From Cycloclasticus sp. (GTDB taxonomy: Bacteria > Pseudomonadota > Gammaproteobacteria > Methylococcales > Cycloclasticaceae), in NCBI GenBank assembly GCA_002700385.1, contig PADC01000006.1, positions 1 to 64,000 on the forward strand: 64,000 bases of DNA, given 5' to 3'. Positions 2,829-25,048 of the stretch are shown piece after piece. The notes beneath the pieces were generated by a model. It did not search any database. It was not told the DNA's origin and saw nothing but the letters and a program-made list of their open reading frames with translations. Position 1 is the first letter of the stretch. Each line of letters opens with the position of its first letter. The position numbers were made by a program, and so were the translations under genes.

Positions 2829-2833
2829 ATTTT

Positions 2834-3676
2834 TTAATAATTTTGATGTACAGGCGGCTTTTCAGATTTATTAAGAACACTCCCGACGAGAGGAGTTCCT
2901 TCCAATAACTGAATAGTTTTGACAATTTCAGATTCTTTATTTCTTCCGTCTTCAATAACGATAAGGCCACAATCTATAAAGTTAGAAGCCAACAGCACAT
3001 CATCAGTTTGAAGAACAGGTGGCATATCAAAAATTATCATTCTAGATCGATATCTAGCTTTTAATTCTGAAACCAGGTTTTTCATTCTAAAACCAGATAA
3101 TAATTCTGCCGAATCTTCTGCACGACCATCACCAGGAAGTATCACCAAACCATTAATACCTGGGTTGATTAGTATTTCAGGGAAATCCGCTTTGCTTTCA
3201 AGGTAATCTTTTAAACCAGCCTTAACATCAAAACCAAAGTATTTGTTTAAGCGAGGGTTACGTAAGTCCAAATCGACTAATAAAACTGTTTGATTAGTTT
3301 CCATGGCCATCGCAACAGCTAAATTAGAAGCCACTAAAGATTTACCTTCCCCTGCCGTTGGAGAAGTTACAGCAATTGTCTGCCAGTTTTTTTCACGCAT
3401 CTTTTTTAAAACTTGCGTACGTAACATTCTAAAAACGCCAGACTGTGGATTACTATATTGAGCAGCAATTACTCTATTATCTGCTAAAGTTTTTTCTGAA
3501 ACATTAACCACTTTCGTCTGTGAATAAGTGATTTCCTGAACCCCAGGAGCTTCTATCTCAGTCTTTTTTCTATCTGAGCCGGCAATATTCCCAGCAACAT
3601 TTTTTGGAAGATCATCACGCTGCTTTCCATCTTGTTTAGCCTTTGCCTTATCCAAGGCTTTTTGAATTCTATCCAT
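2834..3676 (-). CDS. EPS tyrosine autokinase, XrtA/PEP-CTERM type (TIGR03018-like)
   Basis: This 280-residue bacterial tyrosine (BY) kinase is a cytoplasmic ATPase that phosphorylates itself and pairs with the Wzz-like protein to control EPS chain export. Walker A (SPTAGEGKS) is at about 105-113, Walker A' (VLLVDLDLRNP) at about 131-141 and Walker B (MIIFDMPP) at about 213-220. The N-terminal 60 residues (MDRIQKALDKAKAKQ) are charged and helical, as usual for this family. The C-terminus ends in a single tyrosine (HQNY) rather than a tyrosine cluster, so the phospho-acceptor pattern differs from Wzc-type enzymes. It lies 32 bp after the chain-length gene and directly before the ATPase, in one operon. 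Confidence 0.9.
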   Translation of the reverse strand: MDRIQKALDKAKAKQDGKQRDDLPKNVAGNIAGSDRKKTEIEAPGVQEITYSQTKVVNVSEKTLADNRVIAAQYSNPQSGVFRMLRTQVLKKMREKNWQTIAVTSPTAGEGKSLVASNLAVAMAMETNQTVLLVDLDLRNPRLNKYFGFDVKAGLKDYLESKADFPEILINPGINGLVILPGDGRAEDSAELLSGFRMKNLVSELKARYRSRMIIFDMPPVLQTDDVLLASNFIDCGLIVIEDGRNKESEIVKTIQLLEGTPLVGSVLNKSEKPPVHQNY

Positions 3677-3708
3677 TTGCGTTATCTTCTTAGGTTGAAT
3701 ATAGTTAG

Positions 3709-5313
3709 TTACAATAAACTAATTACACGAAAAAATTTAAACCACAATATTTGAATATCCATTATTAAAAAATGGAAGCCCAAAAGTAATAAAGCCGCGA
3801 TGCCGATGAGCCAGTATAGTTTGGTATATCTATTAAATGGCTTTATAACTGTCTCACTTGCTACTTTTATGACAGGTACAACTACGAGAGGTGAATATCC
3901 AAAAATTCGACTTATATCCTTATAACCACGCACACCCCCCATCAACATTTCATACAATAATGCCAAACCAATACCTAATCCAAGGGAGGCAGCAAAGCCC
4001 ATTATAAATATTTTGAAACGGTTTGGCTTTTCAGGTTTACTTGGTAAGGATGGTGGCTCAATCAGTGTAAAACTCTCACCCTTATTTTCTGATTCAAGAT
4101 TTTGAGCTAACTCTGCTTGAAGTTCTTTTGCTCTCAACTCTTTGTATTTAGAAACATTATTATCATAATCTCGGACTAAGTCGCTATATGCTCGTTTTAC
4201 CTGATGAGTATCGGCAACCCTTTTTTCAAAGGAAGCTAGTTCTTCTTTTGCTTGTTTTTGTCTTTTAAGTAATCGTTTTATTTCTCGCTCAGTAGACCTT
4301 ATCTGCGATGATAATTTTAAAAATAATGGACTTTTATATTCATTCTTAGGCTCTCCATTATTTGTTATATTTTTTGTTTTCAACTCATCTTCAAGACTCT
4401 CAACAAGCCTTTTTAGTCGCTTAACGTCAGGATGATGTTCAGAATATTTGTCTTTTAATGAAGCAAGATTTCCCTTGGCCTGGGCAAGTTGTTGAGGAAC
4501 ACTAAGTGGGCCCGATTTTTGAGAAACTAAGATATCAAAATTAGCTAATTCTAAATTCATTGTGAGAATTTGATCTTTGAGACTAATTATCTGATTCTGC
4601 CCAACTACTAATTCTTGTTGTAATTTTTCAACCATTGATAAATTATAGGGAAGCAGCTCAGGTAAACTTTCACTATATGTTTCTTTAAAATCAGCTATCT
4701 TCTTTTCTAATAATTGAATTTTTTCCTCAAATTTATCTCCCTCTTCTTTTAGAAACCCTCTTGTTTCTGCGGCTCGAGCAGTTCGTGTTTTAACATTTTC
4801 ATCAAGAAACTGGGTCGTTAATTCATTGGCGACATTTTGTGCTGTCTTAGGACTCTTGTCCATAAATGACACTTTAAAAGCGATACTTGCACGTTTAGAT
4901 CGCCCGCTATTTGGGTCTGTTACATCAGCTCTTACCATATCAACTGACATATGTGTACGAAACAGCTCAACAATTGCCGTGTTTGTCGATTTACTAACCT
5001 CATTCGGATATAGGTTATATTTATTAACAATCTCCATTATTCTTGATTGCGTTAACAATTTTTGTTTAATAATTGCAATCCGCTGATCAGCATAACTGGT
5101 AACTGTTGAACGAACTAAATCACGAGGAATTTCTTGTGATTCTATAAGGATTAAACCGCTTGATTTATAAGTCGCTGGTAATAATAACGCAACCGCAACA
5201 GATACCAGCGTCAGTAATAACGCAGGGTAAAGAATTAATTTTTTATGTCGATTAAGGATTTCAAGATAATCACTTATTCCTTTAACTTCTTCTTCCATTT
5301 TTAACTCTGACAA
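3709..5313 (-). CDS. Polysaccharide chain-length determinant, Wzz/XrtA type (TIGR03007-like)
   Basis: This 534-residue inner-membrane co-polymerase controls EPS chain length and contacts the tyrosine kinase. One membrane segment lies near the N-terminus (about residues 30-50, ALLLTLVSVAVALLLP). A long periplasmic region of coiled coils follows (about 180-400, rich in E, K, L and Q, e.g. EEKIQLLEKKIADFK). Two further hydrophobic segments lie near the C-terminus (about 440-460 and 500-525), the first preceded by the family's Pro-rich motif PPSLPSKPEKPNRFK. No kinase domain is fused, and the separate kinase is the next gene. The start codon directly abuts the barrel gene's stop, so translation is probably coupled. 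Confidence 0.92.
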   Translation of the reverse strand: MSELKMEEEVKGISDYLEILNRHKKLILYPALLLTLVSVAVALLLPATYKSSGLILIESQEIPRDLVRSTVTSYADQRIAIIKQKLLTQSRIMEIVNKYNLYPNEVSKSTNTAIVELFRTHMSVDMVRADVTDPNSGRSKRASIAFKVSFMDKSPKTAQNVANELTTQFLDENVKTRTARAAETRGFLKEEGDKFEEKIQLLEKKIADFKETYSESLPELLPYNLSMVEKLQQELVVGQNQIISLKDQILTMNLELANFDILVSQKSGPLSVPQQLAQAKGNLASLKDKYSEHHPDVKRLKRLVESLEDELKTKNITNNGEPKNEYKSPLFLKLSSQIRSTEREIKRLLKRQKQAKEELASFEKRVADTHQVKRAYSDLVRDYDNNVSKYKELRAKELQAELAQNLESENKGESFTLIEPPSLPSKPEKPNRFKIFIMGFAASLGLGIGLALLYEMLMGGVRGYKDISRIFGYSPLVVVPVIKVASETVIKPFNRYTKLYWLIGIAALLLLGFHFLIMDIQILWFKFFRVISLL

Positions 5314-6471
5314 TTAGCGTGAAATCTGTAACCCATCCCAATCATAATTCAATGTGAGCATTATTGCGTTACTATCCACATCGGTTCCTACTTGAGAATC
5401 TTTTTGGTGACGGTATTTATAAGATAGACTCAGATTAACATTAGAAGAAAAATTCCAAGCAATTGAAGGACTCACACTAAAATTTTTTCGAATATCATTT
5501 GAATTTCCTCCAGATGCAGACCGTATTTCTTGATAAGTACTCGAAACTCTCGCAATTAGAGTTTCACTTAATTGCCTGGAAAAGGTGGCATTGATTTGGT
5601 CACGTTCGTTTACACCTCCATTATCTGATGCAAAAAGTGAACGTGAAATAGATAAATTTGCCGAATCTATATCAAATTTATAGCTAACATTAATATCCAG
5701 CGATGAACCGCTATCGGTATCATTTGTTTGTTTATCCTCAACTAAGCGAAAACCAACTTTACCTTTTAGTGCCCAAATCTCTGATAAATTATACGTTGAG
5801 ACAAGTGATAAATCATAGCTGTCATTGTCTGTTACAGTTGTCAACGAGCTAGACTTACTGTTATTCGCTGTCAAGTCAAGCCCCCCGTTTAAACGCTCTG
5901 TAAATTGATGCTGCCAACCTGTAGAAATGTATTTTGTTTCAGTATCACTAAAGTCAAGTGTTGAAAATTCCTTTTTACTATACCCACCCCTGAAGGAAAG
6001 AGAATCTCGCTCTGTCAGCTGATAAACGAATGAAGGTGTAATTGATCTCGTAGTTGAAGTAGAATCTGTTTCAAAATCGCCTGTATCGATCTCCGCTTCA
6101 CTCCTGCTAGCACTTTTCACATAGCTTAATCCAAGACCCCACTTGCTTCTTTCAGTTTGATGTGATGAATTAAATCTAAAAAAAGGGGTTTCATTATCTA
6201 AATACTTAGATGCTTCGTACCGATCAATTGCATAACCAACACTTAAGGAAACATTTGTTTGGTCTAAAGCATAAGACGTTACAAGAGTTGGAGTTACACT
6301 AGAGTGATAATCGCCAACCTTATTTGTATCACGCATAAATATGTTATCGTCGTATTCTAGAAAAGGGTTTAACGAACCAGAAATTGACCATTCAGCTGCT
6401 TGAAGTGAAACTATAGGCAGCGTGCATAAAAATGTTATTGGTATTATTGATTTCATCCGAATAACTCTCAT
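5314..6471 (-). CDS. Outer-membrane beta-barrel protein of XrtA/PEP-CTERM EPS locus
   Basis: This 385-residue predicted outer-membrane barrel has a signal peptide (MKSIIPITFLCTLPIVSLQA, cleaved before AEW) followed by alternating amphipathic strands full of aromatic and Ser/Thr/Asn residues. It ends in an aromatic-rich strand (LNYDWDGLQISR). Members of this group (TIGR03016-like) sit in exosortase EPS loci and are thought to form the outer-membrane exit channel for the polymer, much as BcsC-like barrels do. Its ATG overlaps the stop of the export gene by four bases (ATGA), indicating coupled translation. An internal ATG five codons in (6456) has better ribosome-site spacing and may be the true start. 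Confidence 0.82.
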   Translation of the reverse strand: MRVIRMKSIIPITFLCTLPIVSLQAAEWSISGSLNPFLEYDDNIFMRDTNKVGDYHSSVTPTLVTSYALDQTNVSLSVGYAIDRYEASKYLDNETPFFRFNSSHQTERSKWGLGLSYVKSASRSEAEIDTGDFETDSTSTTRSITPSFVYQLTERDSLSFRGGYSKKEFSTLDFSDTETKYISTGWQHQFTERLNGGLDLTANNSKSSSLTTVTDNDSYDLSLVSTYNLSEIWALKGKVGFRLVEDKQTNDTDSGSSLDINVSYKFDIDSANLSISRSLFASDNGGVNERDQINATFSRQLSETLIARVSSTYQEIRSASGGNSNDIRKNFSVSPSIAWNFSSNVNLSLSYKYRHQKDSQVGTDVDSNAIMLTLNYDWDGLQISR

Positions 6472-7025
6472 GGCACTACGATAACATCGCCACTTTGAAG
6501 CTTAATGTTGGTCGACAAATCACTTCCACTTTTAATATCCGCATAACGTACAGTTATGGCTTTTTCAGAACCTCCGATAGTCCTAAGCACTGTAATACTG
6601 TTTTCTTTTGCATATGGCGATAGCCCACCAGACAGACTTAATGCTTGCATAACACTAAACTGCTGACTCATTTCGAAACTGCCTGGATTTGATACCTTTC
6701 CCAAGACATGGATGGTATTACCACTAACTTGAGCTACGACAACTGAGACTGATGGATCAGTCAAAAATTTCTCAAGACTTTTTTTAAGCGCTGCTTCAAG
6801 TTCCCTAACACTTTTTCCCTCTGCATGTATTACACCCGCTAAAGGAAATGAAATAGTTCCATCCGGTAAGACAACCACCGACTTTTGAAGAGCATCCTCA
6901 TTCCAAACTGAAATATCGAGCACATCACCTGAATTTAATAAATACTTGCCAGAAGCCTGTACTGTATTACTGAACAGCGAAACACATAAAATAACAAAAC
7001 TTATATAAAGCTTAAAATTTTTCAT
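6468..7025 (-). CDS. Polysaccharide export protein, Wza/XrtA type (TIGR03027-like)
   Basis: This 185-residue periplasmic or outer-membrane export protein has a signal peptide (MKNFKLYISFVILCVSLFS, cleavage near VQA/SG). The poly_export domain opens with YLLNSGDVLDISVWNE, and a SLBB-like segment follows (VHVLGKV-type, here TIHVLGKVSNPGSFE) and ends LQSGDVIVVP. No lipobox Cys follows the signal, unlike Wza itself, so it is not obviously acylated. It is the first gene of the downstream EPS operon and overlaps the barrel gene by four bases. An AAAAAGG ribosome site precedes the ATG. It lies just past the terminator of the PEP-CTERM gene. Confidence 0.92.
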   Translation of the reverse strand: MKNFKLYISFVILCVSLFSNTVQASGKYLLNSGDVLDISVWNEDALQKSVVVLPDGTISFPLAGVIHAEGKSVRELEAALKKSLEKFLTDPSVSVVVAQVSGNTIHVLGKVSNPGSFEMSQQFSVMQALSLSGGLSPYAKENSITVLRTIGGSEKAITVRYADIKSGSDLSTNIKLQSGDVIVVP

Positions 7026-8256: not shown

Positions 8257-9240
8257 TTACAAGGACGACTCAGATGATGAAAAAAACTTCTTATTTCCAT
8301 TAAGATAAAACACCAGCCCTAATAGACCGACAATGATCATAACAAGTCTCCAACCAAGGATAGTCTCAGCTCCACCGGTTAACCCTCCAAGAAGAAATAA
8401 ACTTTCCATTGCCGCTTCCCCAACACCTAAACCTCCAGGTGTGATAGGGAGAGAATTCGCCATATACCCCATTGGAACAAGTAATAACATTTTAAATTCA
8501 GCCCCTGATATATTTGTTGCTTGAGCAATAGCCAATGAGACGCCGACCATCAGAAGCTGTAGAAAATAAGACATTAACAAGGCTTTTATTAAAACATCAA
8601 GGCTAGCCCGATAATGATGGATAGTAAGTAATACACGGGATAAATGGCATCCAAAACTAATTTTATTATCCAACCAGTAGATTAACTTACTACCAGCTAA
8701 GTCCAATTTAGCCCCAAGAAAAGTAACTAAAATAATACATAAAGAAGTTGCAAATGATATAGCTAACAGTCCCTTTAAAATAACTTGAGACAGAATCAAC
8801 TCAATGAAAAAAGGGGCCAGTAACAATGGTAATGTTAACAATGAAAAAAGGCCGATAAATCGATCTAAAAATAAAATGGTAACAACTTCCGCCTTACTGC
8901 CAGGATTGTCTTTACTCGCATAATATATTTTCACCAAATCACCCCCTGTCGCACCAGGCAAATAGGTACTAAAAAACAAGCCTATCAAAGTCAGTTTAAT
9001 GGAGGCCATATATGAAAGGCTCATTTGGTGTACTTTAATTAGTATCTGCAAACGTAGAGCTTGAAGGATGGTCGCTGTAAAAAACAAAACAATGGCTAGC
9101 AGCGTATAGGGCCAAACTCTTAGCAAGCCAGACAGCGATGTCCAATCAATCGTTCCCATTTTTACAAGATACAAAAGCATTGCTACGGCTACGACTAGCC
9201 GTACAATTGTAAATACTGTTTTTGAACTTAATTTAAAAAT
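8257..9240 (-). CDS. UPF0104/LPG-synthase-like transmembrane protein, possible ATT start
   Basis: This polytopic inner-membrane protein belongs to the lysylphosphatidylglycerol synthase transmembrane (UPF0104, YbhN-like) family, common in polysaccharide and lipid loci. Family hallmarks are LRLQILIK, the TYLPGATGGDLVKIYY stretch, FLDRFIGLFSLL and the C-terminal PITPGGLGVGEAAME. About seven to eight membrane segments are visible. The first ATG is at 9180, but it cuts into the first membrane segment and has no ribosome site. The frame stays open upstream to 9252 and encodes the expected amphipathic start and segment (IFKLSSKTVFTIVRLVVAVA). No ATG, GTG or TTG lies there; the only candidate is ATT at 9240 with AGG six bases before it. 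That start would give 327 residues, normal for the family. The substrate is unknown. Confidence 0.82.
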   Translation of the reverse strand: MFKLSSKTVFTIVRLVVAVAMLLYLVKMGTIDWTSLSGLLRVWPYTLLAIVLFFTATILQALRLQILIKVHQMSLSYMASIKLTLIGLFFSTYLPGATGGDLVKIYYASKDNPGSKAEVVTILFLDRFIGLFSLLTLPLLLAPFFIELILSQVILKGLLAISFATSLCIILVTFLGAKLDLAGSKLIYWLDNKISFGCHLSRVLLTIHHYRASLDVLIKALLMSYFLQLLMVGVSLAIAQATNISGAEFKMLLLVPMGYMANSLPITPGGLGVGEAAMESLFLLGGLTGGAETILGWRLVMIIVGLLGLVFYLNGNKKFFSSSESSL

Positions 9241-9323: not shown

Positions 9324-10316
9324 TTATACTGCTAATGCCCGCTCTTTTTCCAAAAATTCTGTGTACCAAGCAATAGTATGCTGGATGCTTTCATTAAAAG
9401 TATGCGTAGGTTGCCATTTCAATAGTTTTTTCGCCTTTGAACAGTCTAGATACTGTTCACGAATTTCATGACTCGCTTGATTTAATATTTTAGGAACGAG
9501 TTCTGTTTTATCCATGGTTATTAAAATACGGTTTACTAATTCGATAACAGATAAGGGGGTTTCTGTTCCAAAATTAAAATCTTGCCCTACAATGCCTTCT
9601 TCAGGCAATCGTTCAGCCAATGTTAGATATGCATCCACCGCATCTTCAACATAAAAATAATCTCTTATAAATAAGCCGTTACTTCGAATAATTGGGGATT
9701 CATTATCAAATGCCGCCTGAATAGTCCCTGGAATGAGCCGGTTAAAATTTAGGTCTCCCGGGCCAAAAAGATTCCCACACCGCGTTACTGCAATTGGCGT
9801 GTTGTATGTGTGGAAATAAGACATCGATATCAGGTCAGTACACGATTTCGATACATCATAAGGAAAACGGCCCACCAGCGGAGTTTCTTCAGTATAAGGC
9901 AAATTATCATGCGAACCATATGCTTTATCACTGGATGCAATGATTACACGATCAATTAAGGATGGACACTGTCTACAGGCTTCTAATAAATTCCAAGTGC
10001 CTTTAATATTCGCTTCAAAAGTTGATAATGGTGAGCGAGATGCGGCACCGACAATTGTTTGGGCACCCAAATGGAATACCGTGTTAATCTCGTACTCGTT
10101 AAGGCCTCTGAGCAACAACTCATAATCAATTAACTCACCTCTAACTGTATTACACCGCATTAAGTTATCAGATTCTAATAACTTGCTGCCATGAACCCAG
10201 TCTCTGACTAAACAAGTTACATTAGCTCCTTGAGAAAGCAGCTTATCAACCATCGATGAGCCCAATAATCCTGAAGCGCCCGTTACAAAAACATTACGAT
10301 TTTTCCAAAAATTCAT
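9324..10316 (-). CDS. rfbG: CDP-glucose 4,6-dehydratase-like SDR
   Basis: This 330-residue extended short-chain dehydrogenase has the nucleotide-binding motif TGASGLLG at about 12-19, the catalytic SSDKAYG near 128-134 and YDVSK (Tyr153, Lys157). SSDKxY with a downstream YxxSK is typical of CDP-glucose and GDP-mannose 4,6-dehydratases, which make 4-keto-6-deoxy sugars. It overlaps the cytidylyltransferase gene by four bases, so CDP-glucose is the most likely substrate. It is the last gene of a four-gene cassette (SDR, C-methyltransferase, rfbF, rfbG). A CDP-sugar epimerase role cannot be excluded because it is slightly shorter than classical RfbG. Confidence 0.8.
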
Positions 10317-11077
10317 TTTTTAATTTCCCAAGGAGGGGTTCCTGTAGCCCAAAAATCCTCTAAAATCTGCTTTTCACGAAGTGTATCCATTGGTTGCCAA
10401 AAACCATCATGGCGATAAGCCATTAATTCATTCTCTAATGTAAGCTTTTCAAGTGGTTCCCTCTCAAGGATAGTGCTATCGTCCTGCAAAAAATCAAAGA
10501 CTGAAGGTTCAAAAACAAAAAAACCTCCGTTTATCCATCCTTCCTGTGGTTTTTCCGAAAACTCAACGACTGCTTCTTCATCTAGACTCATTGCCCCAAA
10601 ACGAGAAGGAGGATGGACCGCTGTTACCGTAGCTTTTTTTCCATGAGAACGGTGAAATTTTAACAGCTCATTTATATTGATATTACCCAATCCATCGCCA
10701 TAGGTAACCATGAAGGTTTCATCACCTATTAACTCACGCATTCTAAGAACCCTGCCCCCTGTCATCGTTCCTTGACCTGTATCAATCAGTCCTGTGCGCC
10801 AATTACTGCTATTGCTACCTATAATTTCTCGGGAGCCATCACTCTGGTCGACAAAAAAATCACTGTTATGAATAAAAAAGTTGGCGAAATATTCCTTAAT
10901 CAAATCGCCTTTATAACCACAAGCAACGAGAAAGTCTTTATAACCCTGAGAAGCATAAATATTCATAATATGCCAGAGGATAGGGCGTCCACCAATCTCA
11001 ACCATGGGTTTTGGTCTAAGACCAGTTTCTTCAGCAAGACGCGTACCCAGCCCCCCTGCCAGTATGATAGTTTTCAT
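10313..11077 (-). CDS. rfbF: Glucose-1-phosphate cytidylyltransferase
   Basis: This 254-residue nucleotidyltransferase makes CDP-glucose from CTP and glucose-1-phosphate, the first committed step to CDP-activated deoxysugars. The N-terminus [14 protein letters not shown] holds the GGxGTR nucleotide-binding loop. [18 protein letters not shown] and [12 protein letters not shown] (metal-binding Asp) are diagnostic of RfbF rather than RmlA, and [17 protein letters not shown] is also family-specific. Length matches the usual 255-260 residues. It lies 13 bp after the C-methyltransferase and overlaps the dehydratase gene by four bases. Confidence 0.95.
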
Positions 11078-11090
11078 GAATTTTCCTTTT

Positions 11091-12329
11091 TTATACTATT
11101 CTAGGTTTGGGTAAGGGGATAATAAACTGCCCTCCTCTAGCCTTGTATTCTTGCTGTTGTTCGATAATTTCATCGGCAAAATTCCACGCCAAAATTAACA
11201 CATAATCAGGTTGCCTTTCTAATAATGTTTCAACAGGCAAGACAGGTAAATGCATGCCAGGCGTATATAGGTCTTGTTTTAACGGACTTTTATCTACCGT
11301 ATATGGAACCAGGTCCGTGCTAATTTCACAGTAATTTAATAAAGTATTGCCTTTTGCAGGTGCGCCATATGCAGCTAATGACTTTCCTTTTTGTTTCAAG
11401 TCGTTCAATAAGCTGATTAACTCTGTCTTATTTGCTGCTACATCATCAGCAAATTCTTTATAACTATCAAATTGCGTTAATCCGCGAGTTTTTTCATTCT
11501 CAGCTTCTTTCAAAACTTCTTCAGAATGAATTTTATAATGTTCAATGGGGCCAGCATATACACGTATTGAACCTCCATGAACTTGGACATGATCAACTCG
11601 AGTAATAGCTAGACCAACAGCATCACAAAGAGTTAATAATGCTGTAATGGAAAAATAACACAGATGCTCATGATAAACCGTATCGTACTCTAGTCTCTCC
11701 ATAAACTCACCCAAGTACGGGACCTCAACAATCATTAGCCCATTTGACTTAAGTAAATGTTTGGCGCCTTTCAAAAAATCCTGAGTATCATCCACATGAG
11801 CTAAGACATTATTACCGATAACCACATCGGCCCTCCCATGAGATTTTCGAATAATTTGAGAGGTTTCATAGTTGAAAAAAGAATTGATAGTATCAATCCC
11901 AGCCTCGTTAGCCATCTTTGCTATATTAGTCGCAGGCTCAATCCCGATTGTATTAACACCTCTCGCTTGAAAGCATTTTAATAAGCTTCCGTCATTACTT
12001 GCTACCTCAGCCACGAGCCCATCTTTAATATCCATATACTCGATCACAGTATCGGCATACGCTACGTTATGCTTTGCTATGGTATCTGAAGTACCTGTGA
12101 CATAGATATAATTACGGAATAATACAGATGGATCTATGACATCAACCAACTGAACAAGCGAACAGTTCTCGCAAAAATACACATCTAGGGGATACTTTTT
12201 CTCATCGGCAAAATCACCAGATGACTTTAAGAAAGCATTTGCAAGTGGTTGATCACCCAAACTTAAAAAAAATTTTAAACTTTCCTTCTGGTTACAGCCA
12301 CGGCAAGTTTCACGAATTCCATGTGTCAA
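11091..12329 (-). CDS. NDP-hexose C-methyltransferase (TylC3/NovU family)
   Basis: This 412-residue SAM-dependent sugar C-methyltransferase has three parts. An N-terminal zinc-binding domain carries CxxC pairs at about 9-12 and 53-56. A Rossmann domain has motif I VAEVASNDGSLL at about 106-117, and the active-site YHEHLCYFS follows near residue 218. A C-terminal domain contains AYGAPAKGNTLLNY, which binds the nucleotide-sugar part in relatives. Such enzymes add a methyl group to C3 of a 4-keto-6-deoxy sugar. Encoded just before rfbF-rfbG, it points to a CDP-linked 3-C-methyl branched sugar. The start is TTG at 12329, preceded by AGGAG at ideal spacing. Confidence 0.9.
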   Translation of the reverse strand: MTHGIRETCRGCNQKESLKFFLSLGDQPLANAFLKSSGDFADEKKYPLDVYFCENCSLVQLVDVIDPSVLFRNYIYVTGTSDTIAKHNVAYADTVIEYMDIKDGLVAEVASNDGSLLKCFQARGVNTIGIEPATNIAKMANEAGIDTINSFFNYETSQIIRKSHGRADVVIGNNVLAHVDDTQDFLKGAKHLLKSNGLMIVEVPYLGEFMERLEYDTVYHEHLCYFSITALLTLCDAVGLAITRVDHVQVHGGSIRVYAGPIEHYKIHSEEVLKEAENEKTRGLTQFDSYKEFADDVAANKTELISLLNDLKQKGKSLAAYGAPAKGNTLLNYCEISTDLVPYTVDKSPLKQDLYTPGMHLPVLPVETLLERQPDYVLILAWNFADEIIEQQQEYKARGGQFIIPLPKPRIV

Positions 12330-12375
12330 AGTTCACTCCTTTAACTCAATACTATTGAATTTAAATATTATACGA

Positions 12376-13371
12376 TCAGTTTAAGAACTTAACGCATCGA
12401 CCGATTCCTTCTGCGATACTTAAAGATGGAACCCAGCCTGTTTGCTGCTTAAGCAACGCGTTAGTAACCGGCAAATGTTGCATCTCTTCCTTGCGAACAG
12501 GGATCTCACCGAATTTTAAATTTTTAAAATCAATTGTCAATATACTTGCAGCAATTTCAACAAAACTTCTAACGGAATTCAACTGCCCGGTTGCTAAATT
12601 GATAACACGGTCATTATTAACTGCTTCTGATTTATTAATCACCCCTATGCGTAAAAGGCCCTCGACAACATCTTCCACATAGGTAAAATCTCTTTTTTGC
12701 TGCCCTTCTGTTAATGGCAATGACTGATTCTTCGCTAAATTTAATAGGGACGGTAATAATCGACTGTTATGTTCGCCTGGACCATAGACTGAAAACAATC
12801 TGACCGTTACCCCTTTAAGACCGTATTGTTCACAGCTCATCGCTAAACGCTTCGTACCTAAAAGTTTAGACTCCCCATACAGTGTGGTTGGAACACAAGC
12901 GATACTCTCAGATAAATCGCTGGAGTCTTTCCCGTATTCAAGAGCAGATCCAACGTGAACAATATCTTGCCCCACCCAATTATCACCTTTAGCTGTAGCC
13001 ATAGCTTTACAAACTATTGACACTAAATCAGCGTTAATGGTGTAGGCAAGATTTTGATCACGCTGACTTGGATTAACACCATACCCGGCAAGATTAAACA
13101 CAACATCGGGCGAGATTTTTTTAAAAATATTTATTAAGGACTCTGCGTCATCTACCAAATTCAGCTCAAACACCACTCCACTTACGCCAAACTGATCAAA
13201 AATTCTTTTCGCTGCATGTTTATCACGCACGAATAAAAAAATATTTGCGCCAATTTTGCTTAGCGCTCGTGCTAACCAGCGACCAATAAAACCAGAGGCT
13301 CCTAGTATAACTACATTCTTATCTTTATATGACTTATACACATCAGTATAACTAAAAGTTCTCGTTAGCAA
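12376..13371 (-). CDS. NAD-dependent epimerase/dehydratase (SDR), CDP-sugar cassette
   Basis: This 331-residue extended SDR has GASGFIG at about 24-30 for NAD(P), a Ser in VGSALEYG near 142 and the catalytic pair YGESK (Tyr165, Lys169). RDFTYVEDVVEGLLR is the usual sugar-nucleotide epimerase signature. It leads the cassette followed by the C-methyltransferase and rfbF-rfbG, so it probably reduces or epimerises the 4-keto sugar after C-methylation. The exact product cannot be read. The start is TTG at 13371 with AGGGCGG upstream. The gene begins a minus-strand operon divergent from the PhyH-Rieske gene. Confidence 0.85.
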   Translation of the reverse strand: MLTRTFSYTDVYKSYKDKNVVILGASGFIGRWLARALSKIGANIFLFVRDKHAAKRIFDQFGVSGVVFELNLVDDAESLINIFKKISPDVVFNLAGYGVNPSQRDQNLAYTINADLVSIVCKAMATAKGDNWVGQDIVHVGSALEYGKDSSDLSESIACVPTTLYGESKLLGTKRLAMSCEQYGLKGVTVRLFSVYGPGEHNSRLLPSLLNLAKNQSLPLTEGQQKRDFTYVEDVVEGLLRIGVINKSEAVNNDRVINLATGQLNSVRSFVEIAASILTIDFKNLKFGEIPVRKEEMQHLPVTNALLKQQTGWVPSLSIAEGIGRCVKFLN

Positions 13372-13838: not shown

Positions 13839-15086
13839 ATGTCAAACTTAACGGCCGTAGAACTACAAGCCAAAGACCGCCCTTTTACTCAACTAGCTGA
13901 GAGAATTTTGGATGGCGAGTACTTCATGATTCGAAACTGCCTTCCACAACTAGAACTACTTGACACCCTGACAAATGCAAGCTACCAAGGCATCCTGGAA
14001 ACTGTGGGAAAGGAAAAAGCCGATGAAGTCATGGAAAATGGCTTTGATAAAATTCATCAATATATTACTCCTGAAGATATTCCTAGAGTAACTGATGCAG
14101 CCTATGAATTCATCGAGCCCAAAACCTTAGAATTCTTGAAAAAGTTTGTGTCCAATATCATTGGAAAAACAGACCGGTTTTATTTTGAACGTAAAGCTAA
14201 TGTACGCTTTCATATTCCTCATGATATTGCCGCACCCTATTTAGCAAAGTACCAGCAATTCTCCCACAAAAGAGGTGATGGCAAAATCACGCCACACAGA
14301 GCTCACCGAGATGATTGGGTTGATTGTCCATCCAATTTAATCAACATTTGGATTGCAGTTGGGCCCGTAAGAAAAGGCAATGGACTTACGTTATACCCCG
14401 AAACTTATCGGTCAAATTTAAAAAATGATGGACCCTATATTGCGAGTGATGAGAACCCCGGGCTAGCTACTACTTTTAATATGGAACCAGGAGATGTGAT
14501 TCTTTTTCACGGTAGCCATGTTCATGGTTCTGAAATTAACGTAACAGATACAACAAGGCATGTTATCAGTTTTAGAATTGCCCTTGATAAACCGATATAC
14601 AGTTATGGTCACCATCACCACTATGCATGGTCACCTCTAGCAGGTGGTATTTTTGATATGTTTGCTGAAATCCCTCAAAATATGGCTTGGAGTTATGTCA
14701 AATATAAAATTTTTCAAGCTAATCGTAAGCTTAAAGGTCTCATTGGAATTAAACCCATAAAATCAAGGCCTAAAACTCAAGTAGATCATACACTTAAAAA
14801 GCCAATTCCCCTTTCTGATCTTAAACCGGGCGTCATCTTACCTTGGTCTACATCAATTTGTGTTACCCGTGAAGAGAGCGGAAATATTTTAGCCTTCAGC
14901 CGGCATTGCCCCCACGAGGGTGCTGACTTAGCTTACGGCGTAATAAGCGACAATCAAGTTAAATGCCCTTGGCACAACCTCAGTATTAACCCTTCAACTG
15001 GGGAAACTGCTTGTCAATCACTGAATCATTTAAAAACTTATCCTACAGAAATTAATAATAATGAGGTAACCGTTATAGAAAATTAA
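13839..15086 (+). CDS. PhyH-family Fe(II)/2-oxoglutarate dioxygenase fused to a Rieske [2Fe-2S] domain
   Basis: This 415-residue two-domain protein is unusual. Residues about 20-255 form a phytanoyl-CoA dioxygenase-like fold. The iron facial triad is readable as His156-x-Asp158 (PHRAHRDDW) and His229 (HGSHVHGSE), and Arg240 or Arg246 is a candidate 2-oxoglutarate anchor. Residues about 325-415 form a Rieske domain with both ligand boxes intact, Cys357-x-His359 and Cys376-x2-His379, sixteen residues apart. A linker of about 70 residues contains a natural HHHH and a Lys-rich stretch. The first domain should hydroxylate a substrate using O2 and 2-oxoglutarate; the second could feed electrons or sense redox state. 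No reductase gene is adjacent. Its place among sugar-modification genes suggests a glycan, nucleotide-sugar or lipid substrate. It is a single gene with its own promoter and no signal peptide. Confidence 0.85.
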   Translation: MSNLTAVELQAKDRPFTQLAERILDGEYFMIRNCLPQLELLDTLTNASYQGILETVGKEKADEVMENGFDKIHQYITPEDIPRVTDAAYEFIEPKTLEFLKKFVSNIIGKTDRFYFERKANVRFHIPHDIAAPYLAKYQQFSHKRGDGKITPHRAHRDDWVDCPSNLINIWIAVGPVRKGNGLTLYPETYRSNLKNDGPYIASDENPGLATTFNMEPGDVILFHGSHVHGSEINVTDTTRHVISFRIALDKPIYSYGHHHHYAWSPLAGGIFDMFAEIPQNMAWSYVKYKIFQANRKLKGLIGIKPIKSRPKTQVDHTLKKPIPLSDLKPGVILPWSTSICVTREESGNILAFSRHCPHEGADLAYGVISDNQVKCPWHNLSINPSTGETACQSLNHLKTYPTEINNNEVTVIEN

Positions 15087-15469: not shown

Positions 15470-16243
15470 ATGACAATAAGCTCAAAAGCTGCCTCATTAA
15501 TCCGTAACACTGCTACAGTTATATTGCCCTTATCTATAAGGATGCACATAAGAAAAATACAGCGTCAGTTTAAACTTCAATCATCGCCTGTGGGGTCGGT
15601 TAATTTTGGTGGTTTACGTAGACTCACTCCTATAAGTCCCATTTTTGGTATCGACCGAGACCTCATTAATATTGATCGATACTACATAGAAAAATTTTTA
15701 TCACTCCATACAGCCGATATAAAAGGTCGGGTGCTCGAAATGGGAGAGCCGCTTTATACAAAGAAATTTGGTGCAGAGAAAGTAACAAGAAGTGATGTTT
15801 TAAATTATGTCGAAGGAAACCCTAAAGCAAACATAGTCGCAGATTTAACGAAAGCTGAGAATATTGCTGACAACACTTACGACTGCATCATAATAACCCA
15901 GACTTTACAGATGATTTATGATGTTCAAGCTGCTGTTGAAACTCTCCACAGAATATTAAAACCTGGTGGCGTCGTTCTTGTAACCTCTCATGGTATTACG
16001 AAAGTCGCTAGACGAGAGGGAATCGATTCATGGGGTGAGTATTGGCATTTTACTTATCAATCGAAAAAACACCTTTTCGAACAATTTTTCCATTCAAAAA
16101 GTATTCATATCTCAACCTATGGCAATATTTTAACGACGATTGCTTCGTTGCATGGATTAGCAGCAAACGAATTAGATCAGAATGAACTGGACTATTGCGA
16201 CCCTGACTACGAAGCTTTAGTCACGGTCAGAGCCACAAAGTGA
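15470..16243 (+). CDS. Class I SAM-dependent methyltransferase
   Basis: This 257-residue protein has a Rossmann methyltransferase core: motif I-like GRVLEMGEPLYTKKFG at about 86-101, then DVLNYVEGNPKANIVADLT, TQTLQMIYDV and LHRILKPGGVVLV, the last being the usual motif after the acidic loop. Motif I has Met-Gly-Glu in place of a Gly-rich GxGxG, as in the methyltransferases that accompany glycosyltransferases in EPS loci. The N-terminal 50 residues are basic and moderately hydrophobic and may touch the membrane. O-methylation of a glycan residue is the likely role. It precedes the pyruvyl transferase by 168 bp on the same strand. Confidence 0.85.
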   Translation: MTISSKAASLIRNTATVILPLSIRMHIRKIQRQFKLQSSPVGSVNFGGLRRLTPISPIFGIDRDLINIDRYYIEKFLSLHTADIKGRVLEMGEPLYTKKFGAEKVTRSDVLNYVEGNPKANIVADLTKAENIADNTYDCIIITQTLQMIYDVQAAVETLHRILKPGGVVLVTSHGITKVARREGIDSWGEYWHFTYQSKKHLFEQFFHSKSIHISTYGNILTTIASLHGLAANELDQNELDYCDPDYEALVTVRATK

Positions 16244-16411: not shown

Positions 16412-17992
16412 ATGGCTTATAATAATTCTACAACTAAAGGCCCAATCTTCGTGCAAACAAAGACTATTACGCTAACTGAAAATGCCACTTGTGAAGTACA
16501 TAGACTAATTTCAGGTTTGGAAACAGAGCTCAATAGTTTTTTAGAGCAATCAACACGAGCATCAAGTGAGTATAAAATTATCTGGTCTGTACCAGTTACC
16601 TCTCAAACCGTTCACTGCATAGTTACGCTTTACCTTTTTGCTACGGATCAAGGCTTCACAGTACAATTGGAGCAGGCTGAAGGTTTAACTGAACAACAAA
16701 CCATTTTCCACAATGATTTCATAACACGTGGATTACCTCAAAGAGAGTCGAAAGTCGAACAAACCAAACTTTTTCTAAATGAAAATTGGGCATTGTTAGT
16801 GGACACCATTAATATAATATATCGACTGCCTTCAATACTAAAGTCACCAATCACTATTAACACAAAAGATTGTAAAACGGCTTTACTGATTGGTATGTAT
16901 GGGGGTGAGCATGTAGGTGACGCAGCCATCTTAGGTGGTGTTTTATTTAGGCTGCATAATGATTTCGGTATAACCCAAGCTGAACTTCTTAGTCATCGCC
17001 CTTGCCATACTCAGCGATTATTAGATGGCTTACAGGTACCTGTTTCAGTCACTGTGCTTTCATCAACTAACAAACAAGTGTCAAAATCATTAAAAAAAGT
17101 CGATATGTTAGTCTTCGCCGGGGGACCTATTATGGACCAACCTAGAGTGCTAGCAAAACAAATAGCTGTTGCAGGCGCCGCTAGAAACAAAAATTTACCC
17201 ATTATTATTGATCGCGTTGGTGTCGGTCCTTTTAAACGTAAAGTTAGCAGGTTCGTTGCTAGAAAAATTGTGAAATTAGCAAGCAATCTGTCTGTGAGAA
17301 CTACTGCTGCTGCGAAAGATCCAATCGTTTCAGATTTAAACCCTCAGGTAATTCAAGATCCAGCTTTTGATTACTTGGCTTCACGCTCTGAATTAACATT
17401 GCTCAATTCAGATGACGAATATAATGTTGAACAACTACTATCTGGGACTGAAAATAAATACCGGGTTGGAATAAATTTAAGACCTATCCGGCATTTATGG
17501 AGCCCGAAAGGCGAAAATTATTCGTCAAAAATAGCAGAGCAATTTATTAACCGATTTGCAAAGAGTTTAATCACCTATTCCGAACAATCTGACACCCCGC
17601 CAATCTTTATATTCTTTTCAATGAATCCTCAGGAGTTTGGTATGTCTGATTTAAGAATCGCTTATTTATTACATTGCAAGCTAGGTGATAAGGTCGACTA
17701 TCGAATTTGGGAAGGTGACCCAGATGTTGATGGCATCATCCATCTTATCAGACAATTAGATGCCGCTATTACTATGAGATTCCACGCTTGCATCTTTTCT
17801 TTATCTCAAGAAATTCCAACTCTTGGTATTGATTATTACCCAGGTCAAGGAGGCAAGGTTGAACAACTGTTCGTCGATGCAAAAAAACCTGAAGACGCAT
17901 GCAGAATGGATGATTTCACAACTAATTGGCTCTTAAATGGACTTGATCGGCATGCCCCTTTAATGACCAAGTCCTTGAATAATAGGAAGTAA
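16412..17992 (+). CDS. Polysaccharide pyruvyl transferase family protein
   Basis: This 526-residue member of the PssP/WcaK/CsaB family (PF04230) is expected to add a pyruvate ketal to a sugar from phosphoenolpyruvate. The family domain runs from about residue 155 (LLIGMYGGEHVGDAAIL) through LVFAGGPIMDQPRV to the C-terminal AITMRFHACIFSLS and PTLGIDYYPGQGGKV, whose Arg-Phe-His is the conserved active-site region. The first 150 residues match no domain I know; they read as an alpha/beta extension without membrane segments and make the protein longer than usual relatives (300-400 residues). The ATG has a poor ribosome site, so the exact start is uncertain. Confidence 0.85.
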   Translation: MAYNNSTTKGPIFVQTKTITLTENATCEVHRLISGLETELNSFLEQSTRASSEYKIIWSVPVTSQTVHCIVTLYLFATDQGFTVQLEQAEGLTEQQTIFHNDFITRGLPQRESKVEQTKLFLNENWALLVDTINIIYRLPSILKSPITINTKDCKTALLIGMYGGEHVGDAAILGGVLFRLHNDFGITQAELLSHRPCHTQRLLDGLQVPVSVTVLSSTNKQVSKSLKKVDMLVFAGGPIMDQPRVLAKQIAVAGAARNKNLPIIIDRVGVGPFKRKVSRFVARKIVKLASNLSVRTTAAAKDPIVSDLNPQVIQDPAFDYLASRSELTLLNSDDEYNVEQLLSGTENKYRVGINLRPIRHLWSPKGENYSSKIAEQFINRFAKSLITYSEQSDTPPIFIFFSMNPQEFGMSDLRIAYLLHCKLGDKVDYRIWEGDPDVDGIIHLIRQLDAAITMRFHACIFSLSQEIPTLGIDYYPGQGGKVEQLFVDAKKPEDACRMDDFTTNWLLNGLDRHAPLMTKSLNNRK

Positions 17993-18066: not shown

Positions 18067-19527
18067 TTACTCTTTTATTACTTGTTTTTTACCGGCGATC
18101 TCATAATGTTTGTCATTTTTGATTTTAGACAAAGCATGCATATCACCGATTAATGTTTTATCTACAAAAGGTGCCAGACCAAGATAAAGAACAATACCGA
18201 CAATGCTTGCTATCATTGAATCATCGCCAAAAAACTGAACCAAAAATAGAATCATAAGAGCTATAAAAAATGGGCGCCATGCAATATCAATTGAAGGAAT
18301 ACGAGCAACCAACTTACTTGCATACATATGCGCAACTAGCCATACCATGCCTGAACAAAAGACCATTGTAATCGCCCCTCCTGAAGGGCCGTAACTTGGG
18401 ATAAGCAACAATCCAACAACTACGGTTGTAACAGTACCCGCTAATTGCGCATAACACACATACCGTTGTTTATCTTTAGCGATTAAAGCCCAACGTGCAT
18501 GGCCATTTAACAATGTCAACGGTAAGCTCCATATTAAAACAGCCATTGGCAATGCTGCCTCGACAAAATTCTCACCAAAGACAATAAAAGATACCCATTC
18601 GGCGAATAAACTAATCACTAAGGCGATAAATATACCCGCCCAAGCAGTAACTCGAAATGAAGGCCATACTATTTTATTAAATGCTAAAGCAGAATGATGT
18701 AAACGATATGAAACGGCTGGAAACAAATTAAAGTGATAAACCATACTAAAAGTAATGATTGCATTAACAATTCGATGTGCGGAACCCATCCAAGCTGTCG
18801 CAGCACCACCCACCATAAGAGCAACTATTAAAGTAGGAAGGTATTGGTTTAAAGCCCAAATGACATTGCTAGCGCCCACTGCGAAAGCTTTCTTTACCAT
18901 CTTAAGTATTATTTGAGGATTTATTCTTATACCAATAGGAACACTCAAACCCCTTTGTATTACTAAAAAATAAAAAGCCATAACAGCCGCTGAAGCAACT
19001 TCTATGTAGGCCACTTTAATTAAATCATCAGGCGATTTAACAAACAAAACAACGCAAACAAAATAAAAAACCATTTTTAAAGCCTGATTTAATGAAACCA
19101 CGCTCATCTTTTCCATTCCCTGAAATAACCAACTTTGATTCCAAACAATACCAAATAAAGCAAAAGCAGTAATGAAAATCAATTCTTTAGTTTCAGGAGA
19201 ATGACTCATTATTTCTGCAATACCCCACATAACAGGCACAGCAATTAAAGCCAATACAAGACGACTTCCGGGAATCCATCTAGCATATAAATTGGTACTT
19301 TCTGGATTTCGGCTAATCTCCCTAGCACCTATCGGTCCAAATCCAAATTGTACTAATAGTGTTAATATCGAAAGTAAAGCCAGTGCAACTTCCACAGAGC
19401 CATAAGCCTTAGGGCCTAAGGTTCTTGCTAGATAAGCAAACGCAACAAGGCCGGCAATTTTTCCAATCATTTCCCCACCAGATAAGAATATAAAATCCCA
19501 TAGGGCTTTAAATTTTGAGTTATTCAT
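18067..19527 (-). CDS. Oligosaccharide-unit flippase (Wzx-like, MOP superfamily)
   Basis: This 486-residue integral membrane protein has about twelve to fourteen hydrophobic spans and the N-terminal signature of polysaccharide flippases (SGGEMIGKIAGLVAFAYLAR, then LGPKAYGSVEVALALLSI). It moves lipid-linked oligosaccharide units across the inner membrane. The tail (KNDKHYEIAGKKQVIKE) is cytoplasmic and charged. It converges on the pyruvyl transferase gene and follows the GT4 gene by 99 bp on the same strand. No Wzy polymerase was recognised with confidence, although the two large membrane proteins further along could fill that role. Confidence 0.9.
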   Translation of the reverse strand: MNNSKFKALWDFIFLSGGEMIGKIAGLVAFAYLARTLGPKAYGSVEVALALLSILTLLVQFGFGPIGAREISRNPESTNLYARWIPGSRLVLALIAVPVMWGIAEIMSHSPETKELIFITAFALFGIVWNQSWLFQGMEKMSVVSLNQALKMVFYFVCVVLFVKSPDDLIKVAYIEVASAAVMAFYFLVIQRGLSVPIGIRINPQIILKMVKKAFAVGASNVIWALNQYLPTLIVALMVGGAATAWMGSAHRIVNAIITFSMVYHFNLFPAVSYRLHHSALAFNKIVWPSFRVTAWAGIFIALVISLFAEWVSFIVFGENFVEAALPMAVLIWSLPLTLLNGHARWALIAKDKQRYVCYAQLAGTVTTVVVGLLLIPSYGPSGGAITMVFCSGMVWLVAHMYASKLVARIPSIDIAWRPFFIALMILFLVQFFGDDSMIASIVGIVLYLGLAPFVDKTLIGDMHALSKIKNDKHYEIAGKKQVIKE

Positions 19528-22358: not shown

Positions 22359-24248
22359 TTAAGGCAATTGCACTACCTTATACACTTCATCTGTATAAAC
22401 TATGGGCAATAAACTCTTTGTTTCCTTGTATAAAACAGCAAAGTTTGCACCGTACCGTTCCCCTAAGCGCTTTAATTTCTTATCAGATATACTCTTGTAG
22501 GCTGCATCTAGTTCTTTTGCCGCTTTAAATCCGCCCCTAGAAACATGCCCATATACATCAACAATTCTTTCATACCATTTTTTCATAGACTGGTCTTGAA
22601 AAGGAATAGATTTAAAATCAACAACTAATGCTCGCTCACCGATAACCCTTACTATACCAAATTCGGGTGGCGTTATTAAAAGTGCATCTTCCGGCGTCAC
22701 TTTCAATAATGCGCGAGCAATCATGGCTTTAGAATTATGCTGATCACTATGATCAAATACTGGCACGAAATCTGGGGATTCTTCTAATCCGCGAAACTGT
22801 GTTAACACGATAATAAGAGCCGAGATCAAGGCTACTGAAAATACTTTAGCGCCAAAAGCAGCCCTATCTAACATAAAAGTAATTACCAGAATATAAGCAA
22901 AAACAAGAAAGATGAATTCAGATATGTCCCCATACAAAAACCATAGGAAAATCGAGAAAATAACAAATAAAACTATCAATACTGTAGGTTTAATTTTCAC
23001 CCAGCTCCATGGCTTGTAACGAAAAACAACGAATGAGAGTGAAGTCAAAAGAGGCTGAGTAGTTCCAGTAGAAAAAAGACTGATTAAAGTTAATGGAAGC
23101 CTTACAGTATTATTCGATTGGAGTAGAAAATGCGAAAAAACAGCACCAAACAGTAAGAACCCAAGCCATTTTATAATAAACAATAGACGAAAAAGTTGAA
23201 GGGTCAATACTGCTCTAACAGGCAAAATCTCGGAAAAATAAGATGCAATCAAGCAACAAACCAAAACTGCTGATAAAAGAATAAATACAATAATCGAGGT
23301 TCTGTATGGCACTGTTTTAAACCAATAGTTAAATGCTACCCCCATAGCAATTAAGAAAAAAGTCAGCGCCACAAAATCATTTAGACGAAAATGACTTGGC
23401 AAATAATGGTGCGGCGCACGAAATGTTACCAAGATATTGTAAAACTCACCTAATGGCAGATGACCACCTGAATTCACTTGTTGGTATGGCAACCACCAAA
23501 ATATAGTTAAGCAACCACCTAAAATAAAAACTCCTGGCAGTGTATTTTTAAAAGCCCTTGCCCAATTTAATTTCTTCAGAAATGTAAAGAATGAATATTT
23601 ATTCGAGGACGGCATCAAAAGAGTCAAAAAAGCAACACCCAGTGATAACCCTCCACATTCAGCACCGTATAAAGGGTGGGGTAAACTTGAAATAGATGCA
23701 AATATGGCAGCATAAATTGGCTGGCCTTTAAACCCCATGACTAAAGCAAGTAATGAACCTGGAATTGCTAAACTAGCTGGTTGAAAAATTTCATATCGTA
23801 TTTGAGTAGCATCACCAAGGTGAAAACTTGCAAGGCCTAATACCATTACTGCGGACAATGAAGCGCCTAATCGATTAGCCCCTATAACCCTTCTAGCCGC
23901 CCATAAAGTTACACCAACCAGAGCTAAATCACTAAGAAAAGTTAACCCTACATAAACCCAAGGGATAGGAAAAAATTTACAAAAAAAACCTACAAATAAG
24001 ATGAAATAAGTACGTGGACCAAACTCTTCTGTGGTTGATAAAAAAAAGTCATTGGTAAGATATGAAGGGGAAATCTGCCGAGCAATAATAGGTAATTGTT
24101 CTAATTGATTACCTACTGCAAACTTGTAAGATAAAACTGTAGAGATTAAAGCCAATAATAATGAAAAACAAAGATCATCGGTACTGATGCCTTTTTTGTC
24201 TTGGAAAGAGTTTCTGAATAACCTTGCAAAAAGAAAATTTAAACCCAC
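22359..24248 (-). CDS. Large integral membrane protein (DUF6798-like), polysaccharide locus
   Basis: This 629-residue polytopic membrane protein has about twelve to fourteen hydrophobic spans and a soluble C-terminal domain of about 110 residues. That domain reads ALLKVTPEDALLITPPEFG, ERALVVDFKSIPF, then KKWYERIVDVYG, a layout I associate with DUF6798 proteins. No GT-C catalytic motif (DxD or ED in the first loop) is obvious, although FGPRTYF follows the first span. It is encoded 32 bp after a polyprenyl-phosphate-hexose-synthase-like GT2, so it may use the lipid-linked sugar made there as a GT-C transferase or a polymerase. The start is GTG at 24248. The function is inferred from context. 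Confidence 0.7.
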   Translation of the reverse strand: MGLNFLFARLFRNSFQDKKGISTDDLCFSLLLALISTVLSYKFAVGNQLEQLPIIARQISPSYLTNDFFLSTTEEFGPRTYFILFVGFFCKFFPIPWVYVGLTFLSDLALVGVTLWAARRVIGANRLGASLSAVMVLGLASFHLGDATQIRYEIFQPASLAIPGSLLALVMGFKGQPIYAAIFASISSLPHPLYGAECGGLSLGVAFLTLLMPSSNKYSFFTFLKKLNWARAFKNTLPGVFILGGCLTIFWWLPYQQVNSGGHLPLGEFYNILVTFRAPHHYLPSHFRLNDFVALTFFLIAMGVAFNYWFKTVPYRTSIIVFILLSAVLVCCLIASYFSEILPVRAVLTLQLFRLLFIIKWLGFLLFGAVFSHFLLQSNNTVRLPLTLISLFSTGTTQPLLTSLSFVVFRYKPWSWVKIKPTVLIVLFVIFSIFLWFLYGDISEFIFLVFAYILVITFMLDRAAFGAKVFSVALISALIIVLTQFRGLEESPDFVPVFDHSDQHNSKAMIARALLKVTPEDALLITPPEFGIVRVIGERALVVDFKSIPFQDQSMKKWYERIVDVYGHVSRGGFKAAKELDAAYKSISDKKLKRLGERYGANFAVLYKETKSLLPIVYTDEVYKVVQLP

Positions 24249-24280
24249 AGTACTATGCCATTTGAATTATCTTTTTAATA

Positions 24281-25048
24281 CTAATGAGACGTTTTTTTAT
24301 GATCTTTAAAAGTTAGCTTTTTCCAATAGTTTAATGAAGGTGAAAATCTAAAAATTAATATATATTTAAAAAATTCAATGCAAGTAGCTGGTTTCACATG
24401 ACTTAAGCCATTACTTCGTTTTCTGGCAAATACATTAAGCTCTAATATATGCACTTTGAGATAATGTGCTTTAATCATCAACTCCATATCAAGCAACCAA
24501 TTGGTTGACTTAAGATCCATTAATTGGAGTAATTCTGCAGGCAAGATTTTAGGGGAACCATTGATATCAATCGATTCAAGGCTTGGCCAAAGTGTTCTCA
24601 CAAACATATTAAACATAGACGAAACGATCTTTCTTACCAAGCCATCCATACGAAATCTACGCCGAACCTTTCCAACTACATTTCCATCACTCGACAATAA
24701 AGCTTCGAATAACCTTAGAACATCCTCTGCATCCACTTGTCCATCGGCTGGAATCATACCCACCCATGGAGCTTTAGCAACCTTAATCCCTTCTAAAATA
24801 CCATTACCATAACCATTGTTTACATCCACTCGGTGGTAAACAATAGCGGGGTATTTTTCAGAGAATTTTTTGATAATATCACCCGTTGAATCATTAGACC
24901 CATTATCAACAGCAATTAATTCAAGTTGGTATTCAGAATCATTAAATGCAGACACCAATTTTTCAAGCGTATAACCTAATATGTCCTCTTCATTGTAACA
25001 AGGCATAACCATTGACAAATCGGCGGGAAAAGTCGTTTCCTTCGGCAT
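24281..25048 (-). CDS. Glycosyltransferase family 2 (DPM1/polyprenyl-phosphate hexose synthase-like)
   Basis: This 255-residue GT-A enzyme opens LSMVMPCYNEEDILGYTLEK and carries AVDNGSNDST and NGYGNGILEGIKVA, which mark dolichol- or undecaprenyl-phosphate sugar synthases. The DxD-equivalent is PADGQVDAED. No C-terminal membrane spans are present, as in DPM1 soluble forms. It most likely charges undecaprenyl phosphate with a hexose for the adjacent membrane protein, which would use it in the periplasm. The ribosome site AGAGGGA lies six bases before the ATG. A moderate promoter is seen at 25100-25127. Confidence 0.88.
   Translation of the reverse strand: MPKETTFPADLSMVMPCYNEEDILGYTLEKLVSAFNDSEYQLELIAVDNGSNDSTGDIIKKFSEKYPAIVYHRVDVNNGYGNGILEGIKVAKAPWVGMIPADGQVDAEDVLRLFEALLSSDGNVVGKVRRRFRMDGLVRKIVSSMFNMFVRTLWPSLESIDINGSPKILPAELLQLMDLKSTNWLLDMELMIKAHYLKVHILELNVFARKRSNGLSHVKPATCIEFFKYILIFRFSPSLNYWKKLTFKDHKKTSH

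Follow-up and report, generated by a model that had tools for sequence, protein, structure and literature searches.

The fusion gene and its domains

The window (the whole stretch of 64,000 nucleotides of Cycloclasticus DNA that we analyzed) carries a gene whose product joins a PhyH-type half, of the 2-oxoglutarate (2OG) oxygenase kind, to a C-terminal Rieske half; this gene and its neighbors are listed in Table 1. In our reading of the open reading frames, it runs in a single frame from ATG to stop without internal stops, and the opposite strand holds many stops. Both domains of the product (P0001) exceed the curated gathering cut-offs of Pfam, with 38.2 bits for PF05721 (cut-off 22, E 2.5e-9) and 44.8 bits for PF00355 (cut-off 20.3, E 1.2e-11). 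With an uninterrupted frame and both cut-offs passed, the initial annotation was right to describe a true PhyH–Rieske fusion in one chain of 415 residues.

Table 1. Features of the fusion locus, with coordinates of the window
Feature	Coordinates	Strand	Basis
PhyH–Rieske fusion gene (415 aa)	13839..15086	+	ORF, Pfam
PhyH core (residues 144-242; H156, D158, H229, R240)	14268..14564	+	PF05721; alignment with 2a1x, MysH, AndA
Interdomain linker (residues 257-335; starts GHHHHY, a motif also in the planctomycete orthologue)	14607..14843	+	Alignment
Predicted Rieske [2Fe-2S] domain (residues 336-402; C357, H359, C376, H379; further conserved C392)	14844..15044	+	PF00355
SAM methyltransferase, between the fusion and the pyruvyltransferase-like gene	15470..16243	+	Pfam Methyltransf_23 / _11
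Polysaccharide pyruvyltransferase-like protein	16412..17992	+	PF04230, 4e-17
Divergent sugar block (CDP-glucose-type dehydratase, nucleotidyltransferase, sugar C-methyltransferase, epimerase)	9324..13371	-	Pfam
Wzx-type flippase	18067..19527	-	PF01943, 6.8e-29
LPG_synthase_TM (UPF0104-type) membrane protein	8257..9180	-	Pfam

The putative Fe(II) facial triad (HxD...H) of P0001 consists of His156, Asp158, and His229, and the predicted cluster ligands are Cys357, His359, Cys376, and His379 in the canonical spacing C-x-H-x16-C-x2-H; all seven residues lie where they had been placed before. Moreover, Arg240, eleven residues after His229, aligns in the family profile with the 2OG-binding arginine of human PhyH (PDB ID: 2a1x), and the PhyH half as a whole can be aligned with human PhyH, AndA, and MysH. 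The Rieske half is similar to the ferredoxins of oxygenases, among them the naphthalene dioxygenase ferredoxin (1.5e-6 against the PDB sequences). The gene is present as one copy in its genome, with a GC content of 39.7% against 39.0% for the window. An AlphaFold model made from two sequences had a pLDDT of 53, which is too low for a metal-metal distance to be read from it.

Full-length relatives and conservation

Besides P0001, we found six full-length fusions, namely one in a Planctomycetota MAG (OFTM109, locus L065, 4765-6081), one of 461 residues in a genome of the same class as the window, though of a different family (G071), and four of 387-436 residues in family f146 (G535 and three more genomes). 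All six pass the cut-offs of PF05721 and PF00355, with Rieske scores of 24-42 bits, and a domain search for the two families in a single protein, as had been suggested for P0001, is thereby positive for the window and six relatives. Identity to P0001 in the seven-sequence alignment is 22-41%, and the planctomycete protein, compared on its own, is about 42% identical over the full length and 50% over the PhyH core. In this alignment, every one of the seven proteins has the facial triad, the 2OG arginine, and the four cluster ligands unchanged, and the same holds for Cys392 (P0001 numbering), although the short tails of the f146 proteins make its match there uncertain. The spacing between the two pairs of Rieske ligands is x16 in P0001, L065, and P0003, and x17-18 in f146. 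Between L072 and L074, which are 92% identical, we obtained dN/dS values of 0.03 for the PhyH half and 0.02 for the Rieske half, and the latter is thus under strongly purifying selection. A further copy in the window's genus (G005) is 82% identical and is cut by the contig end after residue 200; ending before the Rieske part, it provides no test of that part.

These relatives bear directly on the most trivial explanation, a sequencing or assembly error that joined neighboring genes. Rarity is the one point in its favor, whereas a single open frame recurs in seven separate assemblies and the stop of one f146 fusion (L078) overlaps the start of the next gene, so that we regard an artefact as having practically no chance of being true and a frameshift or assembly join as ruled out by seven independent open fusions. 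In fact, such a join and the loss of the Rieske ligands had both been named beforehand as grounds for abandoning the idea, and the outcome was favorable on either count, since orthologues in two phyla are fused and keep the ligands.

The f146 proteins (L047, L072, L073, and L074) end 10-11 residues past the last histidine ligand, and this shortened 'mini-Rieske' retains all four ligands and has two extra cysteines, in the motif CPxHR(L/M)Cx(5)C. In L078 the overlapping gene encodes a flippase, and since its start coincides with the fusion's end, the short end is real, although stable binding of a [2Fe-2S] cluster by this version is uncertain. A relative from Embleya (L045, 9905-10876) belongs to the same PhyH subfamily and is without a Rieske domain, which is therefore not obligatory.

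Both variants would suit a degenerate or structural Rieske part, retained for folding or for docking to membrane enzymes and devoid of a working cluster. Of such a relic, however, one would expect ligand loss, and the CxH...CxxH pattern is invariant in all seven proteins with a dN/dS of 0.02, which leaves this explanation improbable. Ligands that persist even in the mini-Rieske, which is expected to be a poor ferredoxin, also agree with a redox or oxygen gate, where the cluster would sense redox state or oxidative damage and switch the hydroxylase via the linker. Modification of the polysaccharide would then track oxygen or redox state, and electron delivery to the catalytic iron would be unnecessary. 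Against this stand the usual role of Rieske domains as electron carriers and the annotated neighbors, among which we noticed neither a regulatory domain nor a gene for a regulator, and we judge a gate to be rather unlikely.

Distribution and phylogeny

The fusion is rare, and its distribution is patchy. Among 18 genomes of the window's genus, two have it (counting the truncated G005), and it occurs in 4 of 148 genomes of family f146, in 1 of 198 from the order of G535, and in 1 of 343 Planctomycetota, and a family-profile search of a sample of the class returned 2 of 229 (the window's own genome and G071). These counts are lower bounds, because the genomes were sampled and the pattern scan across 84,980 species used restrictive patterns.

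The PhyH tree separates the ordinary PhyH proteins from the seven fusions, the single-domain Embleya protein, and one PhyH on a long branch (support 97/96), and it does not reject a single clade of the fusions (p-AU 0.43). Of the seven fused Rieske domains, six group together with support (97/99) in a tree that includes 27 other Rieske domains; the seventh, that of P0003, has a long branch, its membership in the clade not being rejected (p-AU 0.20). A single old fusion event with a later loss in the Embleya lineage explains these trees most simply; a second, separate gain in G071 is a conceivable alternative.

Viral contigs gave zero matches in single-protein pattern scans and in alignment-based scans, the genome_contigs collection gave nothing in single-protein pattern scans, and the one match in the plasmid collection was the Embleya relative without a Rieske domain. 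A phage origin, with no phage match, is thus unsupported, and a defence role was likewise set aside, there being no PADLOC match.

Comparison with known enzymes

With the PhyH family (PF05721), as represented by human phytanoyl-CoA 2-hydroxylase, AndA, and MysH, the fusions share the triad, the arginine at position +11 from the distal histidine, and the core motifs. However, the solved chains of these three enzymes have no Rieske domain, and the fusions form a distant subfamily with its own N-terminal region and a glycan-locus context. Similarly, NdoA, HcaC, AndAb, and the MocE-family ferredoxins (TIGR02377) have the same Rieske ligand motif and a similar sequence, but they are separate proteins that serve Rieske oxygenases, whereas the Rieske domain of the window is joined to a 2OG oxygenase. 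Against the NCBIfam models of stand-alone ferredoxins (TIGR02377, HcaC, and AndAb), P0001 scores 28.8-32.9 bits, below the cut-offs of 113-150; the highest of these values is for TIGR02377 (cut-off 136).

Rieske oxygenases such as NDO, KshA, and SxtT likewise combine a Rieske cluster and a mononuclear iron in one chain. The fusion differs from these in having a catalytic domain of the PhyH/cupin type with a 2OG site and a C-terminal Rieske domain; in terminal Rieske oxygenases the catalytic domain comes after the Rieske domain, and here the PhyH half precedes it. According to PMC12445004, a Rieske oxygenase system that is self-sufficient has yet to be identified in nature. In the saxitoxin pathway, SxtS (PhyH) and SxtH/SxtT (Rieske) bring both chemistries into one pathway (PMC2684587), though the genes are separate and the product is unrelated. 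The sporadic carbohydrate cluster 2OG-Fe(II) oxygenases (TIGR04324) are also 2OG oxygenases of carbohydrate loci, but their model lacks a Rieske domain and P0001 matches it weakly (5.4e-6 over 38 residues, 26.1 bits against a cut-off of 150).

Among the PDB sequences, chains match either half of P0001 and none spans both, and the open literature searched, which leaves most subscription journals outside, yielded no characterized PhyH–Rieske enzyme. This agrees with the initial annotation, which knew of no such enzyme. Databases may well contain uncharacterized entries that combine the two domains. The domains themselves are known, and it is their pairing that is conserved and uncharacterized.

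Genomic context

In the window, glycosyltransferases also flank the fusion. In the planctomycete locus, the gene directly adjoining the fusion (L065, 6020-7945) is a homologue of the pyruvyltransferase-like gene of the window (35% identity over 525 residues, E 2e-101), and a homologue of the LPG_synthase_TM protein lies nearby (33% over 300 residues). The fusion is flanked by a sulfotransferase and a flippase in three f146 genomes and followed by a flippase in G535, while in G071 it is adjoined by an FAD oxidoreductase and by a glycosyltransferase-like gene, the latter judged by eye. Hence, at every locus with readable neighbors, the gene content looks like that of a surface-glycan locus. The neighbor survey that had been recommended thus turned up surface-glycan genes, and of the substrates first put forward (a glycan, a nucleotide sugar, or a lipid) a glycan is supported, in either a nucleotide-sugar or a lipid-linked form.

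The neighbors also include oxidoreductases that could be partners for a tethered ferredoxin, the Rieske domain then supplying electrons to another oxidoreductase of the gene cluster and being fused for co-production only. Candidates are two DAO-type FAD oxidoreductases, one in the window locus (25417-26574) and one beside the G071 fusion, and the nitroreductase-like gene near the f146 fusions. However, a redox partner gene common to the fusion loci was sought and not found, and the two DAO proteins (the second at L080, 2141-3388) are alike only in a flavin-binding start of 49 residues (45% identity). Moreover, no Rieske oxygenase was recognized among the neighbors examined at the fusion loci. 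For these reasons the probability of such a separate partner seems low, and since no Rieske oxygenase is recognized beside any fusion, the Rieske domain most likely works for the chain that carries it.

Proposed function

The 2OG oxygenases are thought to be independent of an electron partner, and yet many of them become inactive as Fe(III) when no reductant is added. As a tentative proposal, to which we give somewhat less than an even chance, the fusion may be a cytoplasmic PhyH-type 2OG hydroxylase of surface-polysaccharide precursors whose tethered Rieske domain re-reduces its own iron. Here, we infer the metal occupancy, the substrate, the electron donor, and the reactivation step. The catalytic half would convert 2OG and O2 to succinate, CO2, and a ferryl species, and the ferryl would oxidize the substrate, a sugar or lipid-linked precursor of the surface polysaccharide. 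An uncoupled cycle would leave Fe(III), to which the reduced Rieske [2Fe-2S] cluster would donate one electron, restoring Fe(II), and a general cellular reductase would then recharge the cluster. The tethered cluster would thereby take the role that ascorbate has for eukaryotic 2OG oxygenases, but within the molecule.

Such a one-electron re-reduction is possible given the ligand sets of both centers, and it is the most economical role when the literature on 2OG and Rieske oxygenases is put together. In its favor are the invariant residues of both metal sites, the low dN/dS, the likeness of the Rieske half to oxygenase ferredoxins, the glycan context, and the lack of a recognized Rieske oxygenase among the neighbors examined. 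In the former, the ferryl is made via decarboxylation of 2OG, and uncoupled cycles lead to Fe(III), a change reversed by ascorbate (PMC4261134); with O2, PHD2 forms an Fe(III)-2OG complex that is inactive and that ascorbate, unlike thiols, slowly rescues (PMC11525979). In Rieske oxygenases, electrons cross about 12 Å from the Rieske cluster to the mononuclear iron of the neighboring subunit (PMC12445004). The reactivation reading is weakened by the Embleya relative, by most 2OG enzymes needing no such domain, by an f146 Rieske part so short that cluster binding is uncertain, and by the failure to find a dedicated reductase near the fusions.

Two redox centers conserved jointly in one chain could also mean that the Rieske electrons join the productive cycle, as in a hybrid of 2OG and Rieske oxygenases. 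Electrons might replace 2OG in O2 activation or steer the outcome to another oxidation, and a hybrid of this kind could activate O2 by 2OG or by electrons derived from NAD(P)H, or reach outcomes beyond either class. Indeed, in Rieske oxygenases the cluster supplies electrons to a catalytic iron that is mononuclear (PMC12445004) and has a 2-His-1-carboxylate triad as its ligands (PMC3475032). Yet full conservation of the 2OG-binding arginine is what continued use of 2OG would predict, and no dedicated reductase gene lies nearby, and we consider both electron-fed chemistry and a hybrid of such wide scope to be improbable.

As a conserved natural enzyme with a putative built-in one-electron carrier, the fusion would make the reductant question of 2OG oxygenases directly testable by mutation of the four cluster ligands. 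Biocatalysis would gain a self-maintaining scaffold from it, and it would add a previously unrecognized step to the biosynthesis of bacterial surface polysaccharides.

Further features of the loci

The pyruvyltransferase-like proteins of the window and L065, which are kept across phyla, have a long N-terminal part that has no Pfam match. The divergent sugar block of the window resembles a branched deoxysugar pathway, and a set of genes at 1938-7025, next to the fusion locus, resembles the XrtA/PEP-CTERM exopolysaccharide export system (ATPase, tyrosine autokinase, chain-length determinant, outer-membrane protein, and export protein), with all members below the NCBIfam cut-offs. The nitroreductase-like proteins near the f146 fusions (L077, 13986-14708; L078, 4379-5413; L079, 162-1229) are homologues, PF00881 having been tested in L078 only. 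Finally, the glycosyltransferase-like and DUF6798 genes at 22359-25048 of the window have homologues beside the G005 fragment (L081, 948-3633) that are 85% and 72% identical, respectively, and the two regions are probably the same locus, rearranged.
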